A DNA stretch of 64,000 nt from Limnanthes douglasii subsp. nivea (Eukaryota > Streptophyta > Magnoliopsida > Brassicales > Limnanthaceae). The notes beneath the pieces are model-generated. The model was not told the origin of the DNA. It saw only the letters and a list, made by a program, of their open reading frames with translations, and did not search any database. Where the stretch lies: positions 141,590,973 through 141,654,972 of the forward strand of contig JAUPFV010000004.1 in the NCBI GenBank assembly GCA_036936605.1, read 5' to 3'. This document shows positions 54,791 to 64,000 of this stretch, in pieces (the first letter of the stretch is position 1; every line of letters begins with the position of its first letter). The position numbers and the translations under genes were made by a program.

Positions 54791-55291
54791 CTGTTGGACA
54801 TAATGGCAGCTCGTGTTTATTATATCCCAGCTTTGGTGCTACATGTATACACATCAAACTAAACTAGAATGTTATTCTAGAGTAATATTTAAAGTATTAT
54901 GCAATAAATCAAATGATAATTTAAAAAGGGGCCAGGCTAGAAATATTACACATTTTTATAAATCTTAAACCGCTAGATCTTATACCTAATTGATAGATCT
55001 CGCACCTAAATTTTGACCATTTTACCCTTTTCAGAAAACCTAGCTATAAAAGCGTTTGATAGATCTCTCACCACTTTTTTTCCTCTCTTTCTCTCTCTCT
55101 CTAGAAACCTCTCAAGCACCCGGAGCATCCATTTCAAAAATTCGATTTTTGAAGAATCTGAAGTGAAGAAAAGTTAAAGGTAAACGATACAAACATCATG
55201 GTGTAATTTGTTTTTGATTTCATTCGGTCTAAACTGTCGAATCTAGGTTTTTTAGTTTTTTTGGTTTCGATTTCAAAAGTTCGATTTTTGT

Positions 55292-55390
55292 ATGATTTTA
55301 GGTGTTGTTTTGTTAGATTAGTGTTGTATTGTTGTTAGTATTGCTAGGATCTATGTTTTGGTGCTTGATTTTGTTAGAAATGAGGGTGTT
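55292..55390 (+). repeat. inverted copy of the window's right end
   Basis: The reverse complement of 63902-64000 matches this segment with only a few differences, starting ATGATTTTAGGTGTTG. It shows that the two arms are the same sequence in opposite orientation. Confidence 0.92.
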
Positions 55391-55424
55391 TTGGTGGTGT
55401 TGAGTTTTTGCCCCGTGTTTGCTG

Positions 55425-55451
55425 CTGGTAGCACGAACAGCGTGCTACCAG
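55425..55451. repeat. foldback, 10-bp arms, in the derivative
   Basis: CTGGTAGCAC, the loop GAACAGC, then GTGCTACCAG: perfect arms. It corresponds in place to the 39-bp-arm foldback at 63789-63870 in the intact arm. Confidence 0.8.
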
Positions 55452-55495
55452 ATGGGACCTGGTCGCAGGCTGTTTTTGCGACGAAGAAGGTTTTG

Positions 55496-55633
55496 GTCGC
55501 AGGCCCAAAATGAGACGAGGCCCAAATGGCGTCTCATTTTGGGCCTGCGACAGAATATTAAGCTGTCTCATTTTGGGCCTGCGACAGAATATTAAGTTGT
55601 CTCATTTTGGGCATGCGACAGAATATTAAGCCC
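55496..55633. repeat. 21-14-21 foldback plus 34-bp tandem copies
   Basis: A 21-bp arm (55496-55516, starting GTCGCAGGCCC), a 14-nt loop and its exact reverse complement (55531-55551). The right arm then recurs at 55565 and 55599, each followed by AGAATATTAAG, giving a 34-bp tandem unit. The last copy has one change. Confidence 0.9.
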
Positions 55634-56087
55634 AAATGATGCTTCATTTTTTTTTATTTGTTGATTTGTGACTAATACATATTTTCTTGCGTTGTGTTTA
55701 CAGGATGGGACGATTCAAGACTAAAGTTAAAAATCCGTTCAAGAAACTTAGGGCGTGGTTGTGGCGTACTACCCAGACCACTTTATTATTGATTTCTTAA
55801 AGGGCCAGGCTAGAAATGTTACACATTTTGATAGATCTCTCACCCTACTCCCTTATTTTTTGAAACTGAAAGTTGAAATTCCAAAATTGCCCTTCCTCTC
55901 TCTAGATTTTGACATTTATGCCATTTTGTCTCCAAATCGGCCGAAACACTTAATCTATCCGATATTAGACTAGATCTACAAGCTTTGTAGTAACATCTAC
56001 TAATCTAAACCCATTAATTCGAAAAAATTAGCTTTTTTTACCTAAACCCATAAAACCCACTTCGAAAAATCTTAAATCGGAGTATCT

Positions 56088-59000
56088 ATGGACAAAGAAG
56101 AGATGGGTATTTCTCTGGAAGACTTACTGAACGAGGAGGAAGCTTACCGGATGGAGGTAAGGACCGAAATTAAGTTTTTTTAATTTCAGAGCTGTAGCAC
56201 GCTGTTCGTGCGATGAACAGCGTTGTCATCGCACGAACAGCGCGCGACGGTCGCAGGCCCAAAATGCGACGGGCCCAACTGACCGTCGCATTTAAGGCCT
56301 GCGACGCTAGGCCAAAAATATGGCCCATATTTTTTAGCCAGAGAGCCTCTGTCGCAGGCCCAAAATGAGACGCTCTTTTGTATCCGTCTCATTTTGGGCC
56401 TGCGACGGGACTTGAGACATGTCTCATTTTGGGCGTGCGACAGGTTCTTGTATATATAAACTCATACTTTTCGATAGTATATTTTGCAGGAGGAACCTTC
56501 CCAGCCTCCATTTATGGATGCCGATTACAGTAAAATATTCACCACGGATAGATTATTCACTAAAGACGAATTAGATGCTTTCGTGGAAATTGAATCAAAG
56601 AAGATCCAGTTTGTGACAATAAGAAAACTCTACGATAGTGGGAAATGGGGAAGGACTCCTAGGTTAGAGTACGTTTGCGAGCGATACGGTGTATACGTAT
56701 CTAAGGCAAAGCCGGACACTTTGAAAAAGAGGAAGACATCGACGAAGAAATGTAATTGTCTGTTTGCGCTAAAAGGTCATCCGATCGACGTACTAGCCAT
56801 GAAATGGCGTTTGGAGGTGATAAACGGTACTCACAATCATGAACCCTACGTTCGCCTAGACGGTCATTCCCGCGCTTGTAGGCTAAAACTGGACGAAGAG
56901 GAACTAGTTCGCAGTTTGTCTCACCTAGGTTCGCGCCCTAGGGAGATTTACAGTGGTTTGAAACACCAATATCCGGAAAACATTTCGAACATGCGTGCTA
57001 TCTACAATGTCCGCCAAAAACATCGGGACGCTGAACACGGGGGACAAACCCAAATGCAATATCTATTGATGAAGTTGAAGGAGAATGGATACTCGACGTG
57101 GGAGCGTTTGAAAGATGATACGAAGGTGATCACTGACTTTTTCTTCGCACATCCTACTAGCATAGACTTATTACGTACATTCCCGAACGTGTTATTCATG
57201 GATTGTACGTACAAGACGACTAGGTATAAGATGTCGTTGTTAGAGGTTGTTGGTTTTACGTCCACTTCCATCACATTCACAGTTGCGTACGTGTTTATGA
57301 GCGGAGAGAAGATTGGAAACTACGTATGGGCTTTGGAAACTCTTCGTGGTTTGATGATGGATAGCGTTTGCGCATTTCCATCCATTATTGTTACCGATCG
57401 TGAGTTAGCTCTCATGCGTGCGGTTGATAGAATTTTTCCCGGAACGCACCATTTGTTATGCACGTGGCACATTAGTAAGAACATCCTTGGGGCGGTTCGG
57501 AAGATATTGCACGATGATGCGGTAGCGAAACAATTTGTTGAATTTTACGGCTACGCTGCGGAGGCGAACACGTTTGAGAGTTACCAAAAGAACCTGGATA
57601 CACTTAAGGAGATGTTTGCATCTAAACCGGAGTGCTTTGCGTACGTTATGGACTCGTGGATAACAAAATATGCTGACAAGTTCCTTGCGTACAAAACGAA
57701 CACGATTAAGCATTATGGCCAAACAACTACAAATAGGTTAGTCCGTGTATCCTACTTTTCATTGAGTTATTTTATTAAAGTACTTCGTGGTTTGATAATT
57801 TATTACTTGTACTTATTAGGGCGGAGGGTGCACACTCGTCCCTAAAAAAATATCTTGGGACGAATCAATGCAACTTTGAGACTTTTTGGGAAAAAGTTCA
57901 TAACTTGTTAACGAAGCAGCATGCGGGTATCGTCGAATCATTCGAGCGAAGTAAGTTTAGATCAATTCCCGGCTTCGATGGTGTTTTGACCAAAAATCTT
58001 AAAGGTCATGTGTCACATGCGGGGCTAAAGATACTAACGGTTGCTATTGTACGTGCTCGGAATATAGGAGTAGATCGGGTGGCATGTGGAGGTTGTTTCC
58101 TTAGGAAAACGCATGGTTTACCTTGTGCATGTGAAATTGCCTTTATAGCTAGAGAAGGTAGGTGCATCCCTTTAGAAGATGTGGATATTTTTTGGAAAAG
58201 ATTAGATATTGTGCACAGGGATCCTACCTCTCGCGAAGAGGAATTGCAAAAAAAGATTTCCTTGATTGACAACTCCATTCGTAGTTTCCGCCCCGACCAA
58301 CAAGACCACATTATCAATAAAGTAATGCAAATTTTGATGCCCGAGACAAGTCATATTCAAGATCCGAAAGAAGCGGTTAGAGCTAAAGGTAGACCAAAGG
58401 GAGGCGTTGATAAATCGACTAAACAGAACCCTAGTTCGTGGGAATATCCCATTGAACAAACCGCTAGTGCTAGTACTCCGGCTAACTCGGTAGGTAGTAC
58501 ACCCGTAAACACGTTAGGGAGCACGGCCGCATCCAAAGTGGCTCCCATCGTACCACCCAAACCTCCATTAGCAAAAAAGAAGGTTGGAAGGCCTAAGAAA
58601 ATTGTTCAGGATGGGAAGTTAACATTGTATCCGGATTGCATCCCGACCTTTCTACACACTTACATTTCAAAGTTAGTTGACGTTCTTCCGGACGGACAAT
58701 GCGGATATCGTTCCGTAGCGCATTCAATATACAACGACGAAGATAGATGGGAGGATGTTAGACGCGAGTTGTTGAAGGAGTTGCGGGACAACCGTGCATG
58801 TTGGTTGGATGTATATGGTTCGGAGAAGGTGTTTGGCGATTTGATACAAAGGTTAGATTACTTCAAGCCCAATCCTAGTAGCCACTATTGGATGACATTT
58901 CCGGACATTGGACTAGTCATCGCGACAAGGTATCAATGCATGGTATACCATGTATCGCTCGCAGCCTCGTTAACGTATCTACCAATACGTGGAAAGCCAC

Positions 59001-59346
59001 CCGTCAACAATTCGACGATCATAGAAGTTGGGATAGCTTTCGTGCATGGATGTCACTTTGTTAATGTAAGTATATGTCGTTTCCAATTTAAAATTGTTAC
59101 GCTATCATTACTAATGCATTCGTTTATTTTATTTCCTTGTAGATTACTACTCCACCCGATGGACCGTTGCCTCCATTATACCCGTGTTGGGCCGCTTACG
59201 CAACCGAAGAAGCGAATCAATGGGCGCATCCATACTACCGGCGGTTGAACAAATTTACACAGATAATGCCCGCAAGGAAAATCAACTTGAACGAAAAACC
59301 CCATGTCACAGATTTGACTAGAGACGAGGACGTTTCAAATGTTTGA
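56088..59346 (+). CDS. MULE transposase with C-terminal OTU protease domain (4 exons, 921 aa)
   Basis: Exons are 56088-56156, 56490-57736, 57820-59065 and 59143-59346; all introns are GT-AG and the phases agree. Domains: an N-terminal WRKY-GCM1/FAR1-type zinc finger (residues about 86-140, C86, C111, H138, H140, with THNHE), and the MULE core with D261 (MDCTYKTT), D326 (VTDRELALM), C347/H350 (LCTWH) and E441 (NRAEGAHS). E441 lies just after intron 2. A SWIM-like finger at about 528-543 reads CGGCF...GLPCAC, with cysteine where the usual histidine stands. Two AT-hook-like GRP motifs lie near 630 and 697. The OTU domain (about 725-865) has D730 and C733 in LPDGQCGYRS and H851 in GCHFVN. The protein should cut and insert the element; the OTU part would be a cysteine protease, probably a deubiquitinase. 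OTU-bearing MULE proteins are known in plants. The start is the first ATG after the terminus, in a short first exon. Confidence 0.9.
56200..56242. repeat. foldback, 17-bp perfect arms, in transposase intron 1
   Basis: CGCTGTTCGTGCGATGA, a 9-nt loop, then the exact reverse complement. The core GTTCGTGCGA is shared with the long foldback at 63789-63870 in the PMD leader intron. Confidence 0.85.
56250..56305. repeat. 21-14-21 foldback in transposase intron 1
   Basis: The left arm 56250-56270 starts GTCGCAGGCCC; the right arm 56285-56305 ends GGCCTGCGAC. Two mismatches occur in the stem. The 14-nt loop starts GGGCCCAACT. Confidence 0.85.
56351..56441. repeat. 21-14-21 foldback plus extra arm in transposase intron 1
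   Basis: Arms at 56351-56371 and 56386-56406 are perfect reverse complements around a 14-nt loop. A further right-arm copy with one change lies at 56421-56441. Confidence 0.9.
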
Positions 59347-59414
59347 AATGTTTTTGTGCGACATTTGTAGTTTAAGTTAGTTAGTTTTCCTAACATCTAC
59401 TGTAACATATGTAA

Positions 59415-59535
59415 TTTTGATGTACTTTTGATGTACTTTTGATGTACTTTTGATGTACTTTTGAAGTACTTTTGATGTAATTTTGATGTTCGATGATGTA
59501 CATTTGATGTAATTTTGATGTAATTTTGATATAAT
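59415..59535. repeat. 11-bp minisatellite after the transposase gene
   Basis: TTTTGATGTAC repeats about five times in a row with variants after it. It lies just downstream of the stop codon and could contain transcript-end signals; no clear polyadenylation hexamer stands out. Confidence 0.8.
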
Positions 59536-59583
59536 ATAGTTTACGGTGTTTTTGAAAGTTACGGAAATGGACAGAATGCACTT

Positions 59584-59738
59584 GTCGCAGGCCCCAAATG
59601 CGACCTCCTTGGGCATGGTCGCAAATTGGGCCTGCGACGGCAGACCAAAAAGTTGGCCCATAATCTTGGACAGAAGGCTTGTGTCGCAGGCCCAAAATGA
59701 GACGCCTATTGGGCCTCGTCTCATTTTGGGCCTGCGAC
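59584..59738. repeat. two foldbacks downstream of the transposase gene
   Basis: The first (59584-59638) has 21-bp arms with a few mismatches and a 13-nt loop. The second (59683-59738) has perfect 21-bp arms and a 14-nt loop. The arms have the same sequence as in intron 1 and in the right arm of the element. Confidence 0.9.
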
Positions 59739-59749
59739 GAGAGGCTAGA

Positions 59750-60010
59750 TTTTTTGCATAGTTTTTCAGACAGAAAATAGGCCTACTTTATCATTTTGGA
59801 CATTTGTTGGAATAAAATACCAGTATATGGGAGAAAACAACAAGTTCATTTTGAAGAAGTTCAGGAAAACAACTAGTCCATTATGAAGAAATAGAAGAAA
59901 AGAACAAGTACACTTGAAGTGGTTACAAGAAGAGGAAATCATTAAGTTATGACTTTTAACTTAACGAAACATAAGAAAATAATTAAACACCGAAATGGCA
60001 ACAACCAAAT
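59750..60010. other. spacer between transposase and small gene A
   Basis: AT-rich and without open frames of note; it presumably holds the 3' end of gene A's transcript (minus strand). Confidence 0.4.
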
Positions 60011-60012
60011 GC

Positions 60013-60390
60013 TCAATCATCGAAGTCGTATCCCAAGTTGTCGTCAGAATGAACCCCCTCCTCCCTTTCCGCAATCCTATCCTGAAGATACGCAACCATA
60101 TCCCTACTGATGTAGTCTACCACTGTCATGTTGAAGACGGCGGCCGCTTCTTGCTTAATTTTATACGGCTGAAACAACAAACGCTGGAGTGGTTGGCAAA
60201 AAATATACCTCCGCTTGATTTGGTCACGGTTGCGCACGAGGAGCCCTTCTGTTTGTAATCCGCCGTAACCGTAGTACATCTTACAAAGCACCCGATCAAA
60301 AAAAGCATCACTAGTATCTTCCCCCATCTCTCGGCGGGTAATCCTCGCCGCCAAGAGCAAATGGTAGTCTTCATGGGGAGTAAACTCCAT
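60013..60390 (-). CDS. small MULE protein A, SANT/Myb-like paralogue (125 aa)
   Basis: The 125-residue single-exon ORF starts at the first ATG about 56 bp downstream of a TATA box on its strand (60446-60455). It aligns along its length with protein B: ED at residues 7-8, FFDRVLCKMYYGYGG (30-44), a basic RNRDQIKRRY helix (53-62) and FNMTVVDYI (86-94). The order (acidic-aromatic start, helix, R-x-x-x-I-x-x-R-W/Y, late F-N motif) recalls the Myb/SANT-like DNA-binding proteins related to Harbinger ORF1, but the resemblance is weak. The C-terminus is acidic (HSDDNLGYDFDD). No database name comes to mind. A DNA-binding accessory protein is a guess from layout. Confidence 0.65.
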   Translation of the reverse strand: MEFTPHEDYHLLLAARITRREMGEDTSDAFFDRVLCKMYYGYGGLQTEGLLVRNRDQIKRRYIFCQPLQRLLFQPYKIKQEAAAVFNMTVVDYISRDMVAYLQDRIAEREEGVHSDDNLGYDFDD

Positions 60391-60839
60391 TTGTTGAACT
60401 TTCTAAGTTTGAGAAGATGATATGAATGTAATCGGATTTGTAGTCCCTTTATATAGTGAAGACAATTTAGGTGGGACTTTATTTTAGAGAATGAGAGGGA
60501 GTTTAGAATTTATAAAATGAGAGGGAGTTTTTGAATTTTGAAAATGAGAGGGAGTTTAGAATGTGAGCGGGATTTTTTGAATTTCCAAGAACCAGAGGGA
60601 GTTTTTGAATTTTGAAAATGAGAGGGAGTTTTGATTTGTTAAAATGAGCGGGATTATTAGAATGTTCGAGAACGAGAGAGATTTTTTGAATTTTGAAAAT
60701 GGGTGGGAGTTTTGATATTTTAGAAAGAGCGGGATTTGTTAGAATGTTTGAGGATGAGAGGGAGTTTTCGGGTCCGTCTATAAATAGAAGCTTCATGCAC
60801 ATTGAAACTTCATCATTAGTTGATAAATCTAGTTGAAAA
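60391..60839. promoter_or_regulatory. shared divergent promoter of small genes A and B
   Basis: TATA boxes stand at both ends and point outwards: TATATAAAGG on the minus strand (60446-60455), 56 bp before gene A's ATG, and CTATAAATAG on the plus strand (60778-60787), 53 bp before gene B's ATG. Between them (60485-60770) about ten irregular copies of GAGAGGGAGTTT or GAGCGGGATTT alternate with TTGAATTTTGAAAATG-like spacers, roughly every 30 bp. Such clustered sites suit a regulator shared by both genes. Confidence 0.65.
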
Positions 60840-61220
60840 ATGGGTTCATGGACTGAGTTGGAAGATCAGTATCTGATGAGGGCATCAATTGAAGTTGGTA
60901 ATATGCACATTCCAGAGTGTGGTAAAAGGTACTGCGAGGCATTAGTATGCCAGATGTACTTCCTGTGCGGAAGGGATGGTGTTCAGCCGCCTTACATTTC
61001 AAGGTGTGTTGATGAAGTGCGAGCTAGGTGGTCGGTCTTGGTCAAAACCCGTCGACATCTAGTTTCTGACCTCAACGAATTGGAACGTCGTATTGCGGGT
61101 AACCGGTTCAACTGTCAAGCGACGGATTATATAACAGAGGGCCAGCTGGATGCGGTCCGCTCTGACATTTATGACATCCAGATACAGCAAATCCGTGACT
61201 ACAAAGATGCGAAAGAATAA
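60840..61220 (+). CDS. small MULE protein B, SANT/Myb-like paralogue (126 aa)
   Basis: The ORF starts MGSWTELEDQYLMRAS; W-T-x-x-E-D is the usual opening of a Myb/SANT repeat. YCEALVCQMYF (31-41) matches FFDRVLCKMYY of protein A. The basic segment CVDEVRARWSVLVKTRRHL (56-74) matches A's DQIKRRY region and keeps the R-x-R-W found in trihelix and Harbinger-associated proteins. FNCQATDYI (90-98) matches FNMTVVDYI. The two therefore come from one ancestral gene that was duplicated in inverted orientation. The start is the first ATG after the TATA box. Function is not known; DNA binding is inferred from the SANT-like opening. Confidence 0.7.
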   Translation: MGSWTELEDQYLMRASIEVGNMHIPECGKRYCEALVCQMYFLCGRDGVQPPYISRCVDEVRARWSVLVKTRRHLVSDLNELERRIAGNRFNCQATDYITEGQLDAVRSDIYDIQIQQIRDYKDAKE

Positions 61221-61266
61221 AGGAGGTTGATGAAATGGAACTGGCCTGATAGATAATTTTGCGTGT

Positions 61267-61450
61267 GTATTTCTGTTTGAGTGTGAGTTTCAATTTAAGT
61301 ATGAGTTTGTATTTCTGTTTGAGTGTGAGTTTCAATTTGAGTATGAGTTTGTATTTCTGTTTGAGTGTGAGTTTCATTTTAAGTATGAGTGTGTATTTCT
61401 GTTTGAGTGTGAGTTTCATTTTAAGTATGAGTGTGTATTTCTGTTTCATT
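61267..61450. repeat. 42-bp tandem repeat, about 4.3 copies
   Basis: The unit contains GTATTTCTGTTTGAGTGTGA, with copies at 61267, 61309, 61351, 61393 and 61435 (partial). It lies just after gene B's stop and between the convergent 3' ends of gene B and the PMD gene. Confidence 0.9.
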
Positions 61451-61656
61451 ATAATTTTGAGTGTGTATATCATTCAAAGTAATCAAACCGATTAAAATAA
61501 ATTAAAAGCAGTCATACAATAAATTAAAATACAAAAATTAAAAGCAGTCATACAATTAACCCATTACAAAAATTAAAAGCATTCATAGAATTAACCGATT
61601 ACAAAAATATAGTGTTGATGTCCAAAAAGCTAAAAAAGTTATTCTCAGAATAATAA

Positions 61657-63653
61657 TCAATGCCGTCGGTACCTCTCGGCGATCCTACACATCATGAGGG
61701 CGGACTCTAAAAGATCAGGGTGATCCAAAGTAGGTAGCGTAGGAGCAAACGCAGCAATCTGCTCGTATCCTGAATAATCAGCACCACCCTGCGGCTCCAC
61801 CCGAGGACCTCTCTCCGGCGCAGGACGACTGACGATGTACCATAGCCTTTTCCTCGCCCAAATGTAGTACATCGGGTCAGCACTCGGTCCACTACCACGG
61901 TACTCTGTGCTAAAAGGAGTGAACACGTGGCTTTCCCAATTCTGCCACAAGTGATCGTCCCACTTTAAGTCTGTGACCCACTTCTTCCCTACTTTTTTCG
62001 ACTTAGGAGGGCGTATATCCTTAGGAATCAGCTGTACATACCCCATCTGTCGAATGACACGGTCTGGGTAGTACGCCGCAACCACGTCGAACGAAGCAAG
62101 GTTCAACTCAACATAAGTCACCTGCTGGAACGGAAAAGGGTCCCGTAAATGTATGAACGGGAGGAACAGGACCTGTAAATAGAATAATTTAGCCCATTTA
62201 TATTAGTAAAAGTACTCATAATTAAAATAATTAAATTGAAAGAAAATGACTTACATCTGCCTCGGTGCAAGTCGCCAGTGCGTGTCTCATCTGCATGCGC
62301 ACCTCATGGGAGACACCAATCTTCCGCGGCGCATGTCGGCACATATATGGCATGGATACGTCGTAACCCGGAAAAAGTGGAGCTCGAAGCTGAACAAAGT
62401 GTGTAAAAATCCACGACTCGAGCAACGCTAGAAACCCGCAAATGCCTCCCGTACCATGGAGAGATCCCTGACTAAGGGCGTGGTACAGCTGCGCTAAAAC
62501 CAACTGGCCCCAGTTGTACGCATGCAAACTCTGGTACTGGTTCACAAACTGGAGGTAATCTAATGGAATGCTGTTCCCGGTTTTGTTCGCGCAAATAGTG
62601 GTACCTAACAGATATAGTATGTAGGCACGGGTGGCATGATCTACCTGGTCATCAGTGATCCTCCTATCACTATACTGAGAACTACTAAAAGTAGTATGCA
62701 GCCACCCTAGCTTCACACTACCAGCATTCCTAAGGTTTTTACTCAGCTCCGATTGCCGCACACCTAGCATGGCAGCATAAGTAGCAAGCCTCTCAACATC
62801 ATCGTCAAAGGGTATAGCTGTGAAGGACCTACCTACAACCGGTAGTCCAGTGATGACGTGGACATCGTCCAATGTGACTGTCATCTCCCCGAACGAGAAA
62901 TGGAAAGAAGAAGTCTCCTCATGCCACCGCTCTAAGAATGCCTCCACCAAATGGAGGTTCGTATGCCAGCGGGTGAGTGCATCGACGAGTGGACCGAATA
63001 TAGTCTCCATCACCCTGGCCCGTACCCTGCTCTGCTTTGTAATATCCCATCTCCGGAGACTGTCATACATAGCGAAGCATCGGAGAGTGACCCTATCCTG
63101 CAATATGTATAAAATATGTAAATTCGTAAAACAATAATAATTAAAAACATGTGTACAGAACACGTAAGAAAATTATAAAACAGTATAAAGGTGTAACACT
63201 TACATCTCCGTGGTAGACGCTATAAGCCTCGTGCAGGGTGTAATCCGGGAAAAGTCCCGGAACATGCGACAGCACGGAATAAAAATCAACATCCTCACCC
63301 TCAGATGAGTGGAATGCTGCCTCTGGCGCGTGAGGTGCATCGTCCTCCGTATAGTCCGGTACATGAGATGCATCAGCCTCCATATATTGCGGTGCATCTA
63401 CATCGTCATCGTACTCCTCGTCAGGGGGATGCGACGTAGAAGCTGCCCCTGTGGTACCATCAGCAGGAGTAGGAATATATTCGCCGCCACGACGGAGACG
63501 TCGTCTACTACGTGTACCGGGAACATGTTCCCCGCTCGAAGCAGCCTCCTCGGCCTCGGCCTGCGCTCTAGCCGCTGCTGCTGCCTCCTCGGCCTCGGCC
63601 GCCCTAATTTTTTTAATAAACGGATTTTTTGCTTTAATCTTGTATCGAGGCAT
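61657..63653 (-). CDS. MAIN-like plant mobile domain (PMD) protein (3 exons, 602 aa)
   Basis: On the minus strand the exons are 63653-63204, 63097-62255 and 62172-61657, joined by two GT-AG introns in phase 0 (donors GTAAGT, acceptors TTGCAG and TTACAG). The start MPRYKIKAKNPF follows a 5'UTR intron acceptor by one base. Residues 18-40 are alanine/glutamate-rich, with a basic patch (RSRRRLRRGG) and a long acidic region up to about 150. The PMD spans about 155-500, with LRCFAMYDSLRRWDI, LERWHEETSSFHFSF and the hallmark GEMTVTLDDVHVITGLPVVG. Exon 3 adds VAAYYPDRVIRQMGYVQLIP, a segment common in MULE-linked PMD proteins. Plant relatives MAIN and MAIL1 act in transposon silencing and genome stability, and many PMD genes travel inside MULEs. 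Here the gene is open and its promoter is in the element's arm. Its role in the element is unknown. Confidence 0.88.
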
Positions 63654-63731
63654 CCTGTAAATACAACGCAAAAAATATGAATTAGAATGAAAAAAACAAA
63701 ATGAATATAAAAAAAAAACAATTTGGGCCTG

Positions 63732-63787
63732 GTCGCAGGCCCAAAATGAGACCTCATTTGGGCCTCGTCGCAGGCCCAAAATGAGAC
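63732..63787. repeat. two direct copies of the 21-bp arm
   Basis: Identical 21-bp arms (starting GTCGCAGGCCC) at 63732-63752 and 63767-63787 are separated by 14 bp. The spacing equals that of the foldbacks but the second arm is in direct, not inverted, orientation. Confidence 0.9.
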
Positions 63788-63788
63788 T

Positions 63789-63870
63789 GCTGTTGGGCCT
63801 CGTTGCATGCCGTTCGTGCGACGAAGACCCCTCTTCATCGCACGAACGGCATGCGACGAGGCCCAACAGC
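63789..63870. repeat. long foldback, 39-bp arms, 4-nt loop
   Basis: Arms 63789-63827 and 63832-63870 are reverse complements with two mismatches; the loop is CCCC. The arms include GCCGTTCGTGCGA and GGGCCTCGT. It is the strongest hairpin in the window and lies in the PMD leader intron. Confidence 0.92.
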
Positions 63871-64000
63871 AATGTCGAAACCCTAATGGCTACAACCCCA
63901 AAACAGCCTCATTTCTAACAAAACCAAGCACCAAAACGTAGATCCTACCAGTACTAACAACAATATAACACTAATCTAACAAAACAACACCTAAAATCAT

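Follow-up and report, generated by a model that had tools for sequence, protein, structure and literature searches.

A young MULE family of Limnanthes douglasii subsp. nivea with a transposase-OTU gene, two small predicted Myb/SANT-like proteins and an antisense plant mobile domain gene

We analysed a 64,000-nucleotide stretch of the Limnanthes douglasii subsp. nivea genome (the window; assembly GCA_036936605.1, contig JAUPFV010000004.1, positions 141,590,973 to 141,654,972), in the last part of which lies a Mutator-like element (MULE) with four genes: a transposase fused to an OTU protease, a plant mobile domain (PMD) gene and, situated between these two in divergent orientation, two small open reading frames (ORFs A and B) (Table 1). 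The element is a recently active plant MULE and nearly intact; the family to which it belongs is young, present in many copies and apparently autonomous. The terminal inverted repeats GGGCCAGGCTAGAAAT and TACACATTTT are alike in 26 of 28 bases and carry the GGGCCAGG termini noted in a preliminary description of the window, and a perfect 9-bp target duplication, TTTCTTAAA, flanks both sides. The start given in that description, 55802, proved correct, but the end had been set at the window edge; the element runs on for about 355 bp, to about 64355, and is 8,554 bp long. By itself, the 8-base GGGCCAGG is uninformative genome-wide (6,151 and 4,954 matches, versus 5,511 and 5,452 for the reversed control). 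The inverted repeats, the DDE transposase domain (Pfam PF10551, E 4.3e-23) and the size of the target duplication all agree with a MULE, for which 8-11 bp is given in the relevant section of PMC6446971. An Rfam scan of 54801-64000 returned no match.

Splicing of four GT-AG exons yields the open transposase of 921 residues that had been proposed, with a FAR1-like N-terminus (sub-threshold in Pfam), the MULE domain at residues 257-354 and the OTU protease at the C-terminus. The window copy has the complete DDE triad (D261, D326 and E441) and the OTU residues D730, C733 and H851, again as described before. All six are kept in 19 of the 20 family copies sampled below, and the DDE residues in all 20; L017 has lost the OTU His through a deletion. 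Pfam gave no OTU match in the transposase at E values up to 1. When a profile of nine sequences (the transposase C-terminus and eight plant relatives) was searched against PDB sequences, ten were matched at E values up to 1, the best being OTUD5 (E 8.1e-5); further matches included VCPIP1, OTUD3, OTUD1 and two chains named viral RNA-dependent RNA polymerase, which we take to be viral OTU domains, and a viral polyprotein was matched at E 0.92. The profile match and the Asp/Cys/His residues together relate this region to the OTU proteases. Exon 3 also contains, at about 58080-58135, a SWIM-like zinc site (CGGC...THGLPCAC; in plant relatives, for example, CGC...THGLPCAH).

The PMD gene, with three exons antisense to the transposase, was likewise found to encode an open protein of 602 residues (Pfam PF10536, E 8.3e-54). 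Residues 301-354 of this protein show a sub-threshold likeness to DUF1985, the VANC domain discussed below (E 0.0023; 18.4 bits versus a cutoff of 35.1). Across 18 copies, the two PMD introns (62173-62254 and 63098-63203) have 5.9% variable sites versus 8.4% in the exons and contain no indels, the opposite of the usual pattern.

Both small ORFs are open at the reported 125 and 126 residues, but ORF B in the window copy is not intact by the standard of its family, since codon 127 is a stop; a frame of 139 codons is open in most of the 150 genome matches listed for ORF B. The preliminary description called the two divergent paralogues, which holds in the sense of distant relatives only: they share 22% identity over 100 columns, and their alignment by hhalign (E 2e-5, probability 77%) and BLASTP (E 0.008) supports homology. 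A and B are predicted to be two small, mutually diverged DNA-binding proteins with Myb/SANT-like N-termini, for which the fold scores are weak. Pfam returned no match for ORF B and a sub-threshold match to NNH5 alone for ORF A, and Foldseek gave no significant match for either protein. Homologues were found neither with ORF B alone nor with a joint A and B profile, in a search that needs shared five-residue words; since masked transposon genes are often unannotated, this does not prove their absence. The TATA-like boxes between the two ORFs, read by eye, are at 60448-60457 (minus strand) and 60779-60786 (plus strand).

Table 1. Features of the element, in window coordinates (bp, base pairs; aa, amino acids; TIRs, terminal inverted repeats)
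Feature	Position	Strand	Remarks
MULE element	55802..64000, on to about 64355	+	TIRs about 28 bp, GGGCCAGGCTAGAAAT..TACACATTTT
Transposase-OTU gene, 921 aa	56088..59346	+	exons 56088-56156, 56490-57736, 57820-59065, 59143-59346
ORF A, 125 aa	60013..60390	-	predicted Myb/SANT-like N-terminus; purifying selection
ORF B, 126 aa here, 138 aa in most copies	60840..61220	+	predicted Myb/SANT/trihelix-like N-terminus
PMD gene, 602 aa	61657..63653	-	exons 63653-63204, 63097-62255, 62172-61657
Palindromic array 1	56250..56441		transposase intron 1; GTCGCAGGCCCAAAATGAGAC and its complement, 35 bp apart
Palindromic array 2	59584..59738		between transposase and ORF A
Array 3	63732..63787		upstream of the PMD start codon; two same-direction copies here
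A/B divergent interval	60391..60839		tandem repeats; TATA-like boxes in both directions
Left target-site duplication, TTTCTTAAA	55793..55801		right copy at 64356-64364, outside the window
11-bp tandem repeat	59418..59535		after the transposase stop
42-bp tandem repeat	61260..61469		after ORF B

With at most two mismatches allowed, the 28-base pattern of the ends was matched 805 times in the host assembly (1.78 Gb) and its reversed control never. Protein searches of the genome were filled with close copies: at least 150 rows for ORF A and as many for ORF B, at least 101 for a transposase exon and at least 138 for a PMD exon; among the matches listed, six of 150 had an internal stop for each of the two ORFs. 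For closer analysis we took the best 20 of the 101 transposase rows, including the window copy (L015), a choice made without regard to the other genes that favours close copies whose transposase is good. Seventeen of these copies have a perfect 9-bp duplication at both ends, in 16 different sequences; no duplication was detected at L016, L019 and L027. The transposase, ORF A and ORF B are each open in 16 of the 20, ORF B with 138 residues in 13 copies, 150 in one and 125-126 in two, the window copy among them. PMD is open in 13 copies, with one more carrying an in-frame deletion, and is broken in six; all four genes are open together in nine. L022 and L028 have no ORF B and L030 no ORF A, L019 is rearranged, and parts of both small ORFs are lost in L031. 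In four more distant copies, taken from the lowest rows of the ORF B search (L035-L038), ORF B is full length in three and ORF A in two, and the transposase is damaged or largely gone in several. The preliminary description had asked for other copies with the small ORFs and PMD in the same place, and most of the 20 carry them there. Transposase-OTU, ORF A, ORF B and antisense PMD are the standing gene set of the family.

Family copies also occur at regular spacing, in C441 at about 239.277-239.293 Mb (every 7,675 bp) and in C334 at about 181.45-181.53 Mb (every 38.6-38.7 kb), which suggests tandem or segmental duplication. The left flank of the window copy itself, 54928-55801, is related to this family's PMD (right) end but stands inverted and has lost internal sequence; in it, a PMD start is joined to a piece of PMD exon 3.

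Selection on the four genes was compared by pairwise dN/dS (omega) between and within three groups of copies, where the changes within groups are few and recent (left out: L019, L030 and L031 for A; L019, L022, L028 and L031 for B; L019 and L028 for PMD). For the transposase, omega was 0.07-0.10 between groups and 0.04-0.37 within them; the corresponding values were 0.08-0.19 and 0.19-0.49 for ORF A, 0.49-0.98 and 0.46-0.56 for PMD, and 1.1-1.45 and 0.44-0.79 for ORF B. Constraint on the OTU portion of the transposase (0.10-0.16) comes close to that on the catalytic portion (0.05-0.08); these last values come from subsets of 8, 7 and 1 copies for the transposase, with 7 and 6 for PMD. A maximum-likelihood codon model on fixed nucleotide trees, with a likelihood-ratio test (LRT) against omega 1, gave omega 0.19 for the transposase (16 sequences, LRT 82), 0.31 for ORF A (26 sequences, LRT 24), 0.53 for PMD (14 sequences, LRT 12) and 0.88 for ORF B (27 sequences, LRT 0.3), the last being indistinguishable from 1. 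In this model L017, L018, L022 and L027 were left out for the transposase; L019, L022, L026, L027, L028 and L029 for PMD; L017, L019, L030, L031, L035 and L036 for A; and L019, L022, L028, L031 and L035 for B. Eight A/B pairs (L039-L054) from rows without internal stops were added. On internal branches omega was 0.05 for the transposase, 0.19 for ORF A, about 0.9 for PMD (0.46 on its tips) and 2.0 for ORF B, the latter not significant as a sign of positive selection; the LRT for the internal PMD branches (1.92 for omega 0.93) seems not to have converged well and was set aside. Purifying selection acts on the transposase, its OTU part and ORF A, and less clearly on PMD.

Distinct indel events of up to 60 bp were counted in 18 copies, without L019 and the reference copy L015. 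ORFs A and B had none, each in 378 bp, and the transposase exons three in 2,766 bp, versus 14 in the 666 bp before A, seven in the 449 bp between A and B and seven in the 400 bp after B. Four, including two of 3 bp, fell in the 1,809 bp of PMD exons, versus 33 in the 702 bp upstream. These counts support maintenance of the ORF B frame, which seems to be kept open while the encoded residues vary freely. The dS between groups 1 and 2 was 0.012 for ORF B and 0.028 for PMD, versus 0.071 for the transposase and 0.093 for ORF A; the right half of the element has therefore probably been exchanged between groups, which limits the power of the selection tests on B and PMD. The right end itself (63552-64355) differs by 18-31% between groups 1 and 3, versus 0.3-3% in windows of the PMD exons (7, 5 and 2 copies compared), as if right ends had been exchanged as well.

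The noncoding parts of the element are marked by a 21-bp motif, GTCGCAGGCCCAAAATGAGAC, which occurs in three intervals, mostly as pairs of opposite orientation. It has 1,941 exact matches in the genome and its reversed control none; of 100 listed sites, 95 are no more than 10 kb from a known family marker, where 1.3 would be expected, and the remaining five form two clusters about 3.8 kb apart. The arrays are concentrated in family copies. Across 24 loci, flanks included, there are 5 to 18 occurrences per locus with up to four mismatches. In L037 the same core is embedded in a 91-bp repeat of different layout, and there is an array of same-direction matches. Other tandem repeats occupy the intervals between A and B, between B and PMD and after the transposase.

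VANC proteins are larger than ORFs A and B and carry DUF1985/DUF287, neither of which was detected in A or B at E values up to 1; the element is therefore not assigned to the VANC systems. It also differs from VANDAL21 (Hiun) of Arabidopsis in having a PMD gene, an OTU fusion and a motif unrelated to YAGTATTAY, the sequence that VANC21 binds in noncoding VANDAL21 parts according to passages of PMC5735166 and PMC10398659, in which the target arrays are said to gain and lose tandem copies. The two elements are alike, by the account of PMC5735166, in being MULEs with extra genes, one of them variable, and in having element-specific motif arrays of variable tandem copy number in introns and intergenic regions; the arrays described here are of this kind. 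By analogy, the element may work like a VANC system.

PMD genes in MULEs, often antisense to the transposase, are known from groups 42 and 47-50 in the sections of PMC6446971 that describe them; like the present element, these have a 9-bp target duplication where one is given and an antisense PMD, and group 42 has an unknown ORF in addition. Unlike here, OTU has 0 occurrences in the main text of that paper, and no pair of small Myb-like ORFs was seen in its passages on these groups. Ginger1 transposases and Helitrons are also recorded with OTU domains (excerpts of PMC2836005), and plant protein databases widely contain transposase-OTU proteins: the FAR1-type MULE proteins of Cannabis, Citrus, Rhododendron, Rosa and Lactuca have the same order, the motif DG(N/Q/H/Y)CG(F/Y)R and a late His, but are 27-37% identical to the present one. 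The preliminary description knew of no described element with this exact gene set, and none was seen in the open-licence literature searched, but published MULEs include some that carry an antisense PMD and some that combine PMD with an unknown ORF (PMC6446971). A small Myb-like pair together with family-restricted palindromic arrays was not found in the open-licence literature.

We tentatively favour, at somewhat less than an even chance, the explanation of the gene set in which A, B or both bind the element's own repeat arrays, with the palindromic GTCGCAGGCCCAAAATGAGAC as the leading candidate site. Binding would keep the transposase and PMD genes expressible, through autoregulation or a local release of silencing as with VANC in VANDAL. 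The conserved A would have a fixed role and B would change quickly, the fused OTU would probably deubiquitinate a factor at the transposition complex or in local chromatin, and the PMD protein may compete with host MAIN/MAIL1 silencing. That the set opposes host silencing may be so by analogy. An independently evolved second MULE anti-silencing system of sequence-specific kind seems improbable; in it, a conserved and a fast-evolving Myb-like protein, encoded divergently from one shared interval, would bind the palindromic arrays private to the family and, together with a deubiquitinase on the transposase and a PMD mimic of MAIN/MAIL1, would keep the family accessible to transcription.

It is somewhat unlikely, as an alternative, that A and B are transposition accessories without a role in silencing, Myb-like escorts of the transposase with internal or subterminal binding sites, in the manner of PIF/Harbinger ORF1, a small Myb-like protein beside the transposase, or of MURB in MuDR. 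PIF/Harbinger requires ORF1 together with its transposase (PMC2836001, relevant passage), mudrB is reportedly required for integration (PMC6446971), ORF A is conserved, and arrays lie inside both ends of the element. However, the arrays are at least 0.4 kb from the ends and occur mid-element too, and a protein on which a strongly conserved transposase depends would not usually change as fast as B. PIF/Harbinger is another superfamily, with a 3-bp target duplication (as stated in an extract of PMC2213677) and not the 9 bp and two paralogous small ORFs seen here.

The dN/dS comparison had been proposed as a check for passenger genes; taken with the shared gene positions and the indel counts, it rejects a passenger role for A, and such a role is less likely for B and PMD. 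We regard it as unlikely that, beside a functional A, B and PMD are weakly needed or relaxing passengers kept through young copies and recombination. Several points nevertheless speak for this reading: the omega of B (0.88) and of PMD on internal branches, the absence of B from two copies and the broken PMD in six of 20, and the 26 of 150 more diverged ORF B matches that contain internal stops. These stops weigh against our favoured explanation, as do the controls of the indel test, which are repeat-rich flanking intervals, with no indels in the PMD introns (188 bp) either. The low dS of B and PMD between groups 1 and 2 also suggests a recently shared right half. On the other side stand ORF B, with no small indel in 15 aligned copies or among the distinct events, and PMD, with its overall and tip omega, its LRT and an exon indel count far from that upstream. 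The lack of small indels makes an accidental ORF B unlikely.

Equally doubtful is a reading of the arrays as RNA hairpins in the intron and 3' region, acting as processing signals or as a source of silencing small RNAs and not as protein targets. Arrays 1 and 2 fold far better than shuffled sequences (z -11.6 and -8.1), and 40 distinct hairpin units keep their arms paired at 19.0 of 21 positions versus 18.7 when shuffled, with 6 of 2,000 shuffles as good; the excess of pairing is, however, small and could stem from arm-to-arm conversion, and array 3 and the array of L037 consist of same-direction copies. A chance run of ORFs is ruled out by synteny and target duplications at 20 separately placed loci.

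The extra genes appear to be integral to the element, and through them it may control or escape silencing. In the open-licence literature searched, VANC is the one plant transposon-encoded anti-silencing factor with direct evidence. A young family with hundreds of ends, a pair of small proteins of another predicted fold, a PMD protein and a fused deubiquitinase would test whether anti-silencing has originated repeatedly, and its family-restricted palindromic arrays offer a specific candidate binding site. The same family would also test the suggestion of Ikeda et al., made in the cited portion of PMC5418596, that PMDs borne by MULEs serve anti-silencing.

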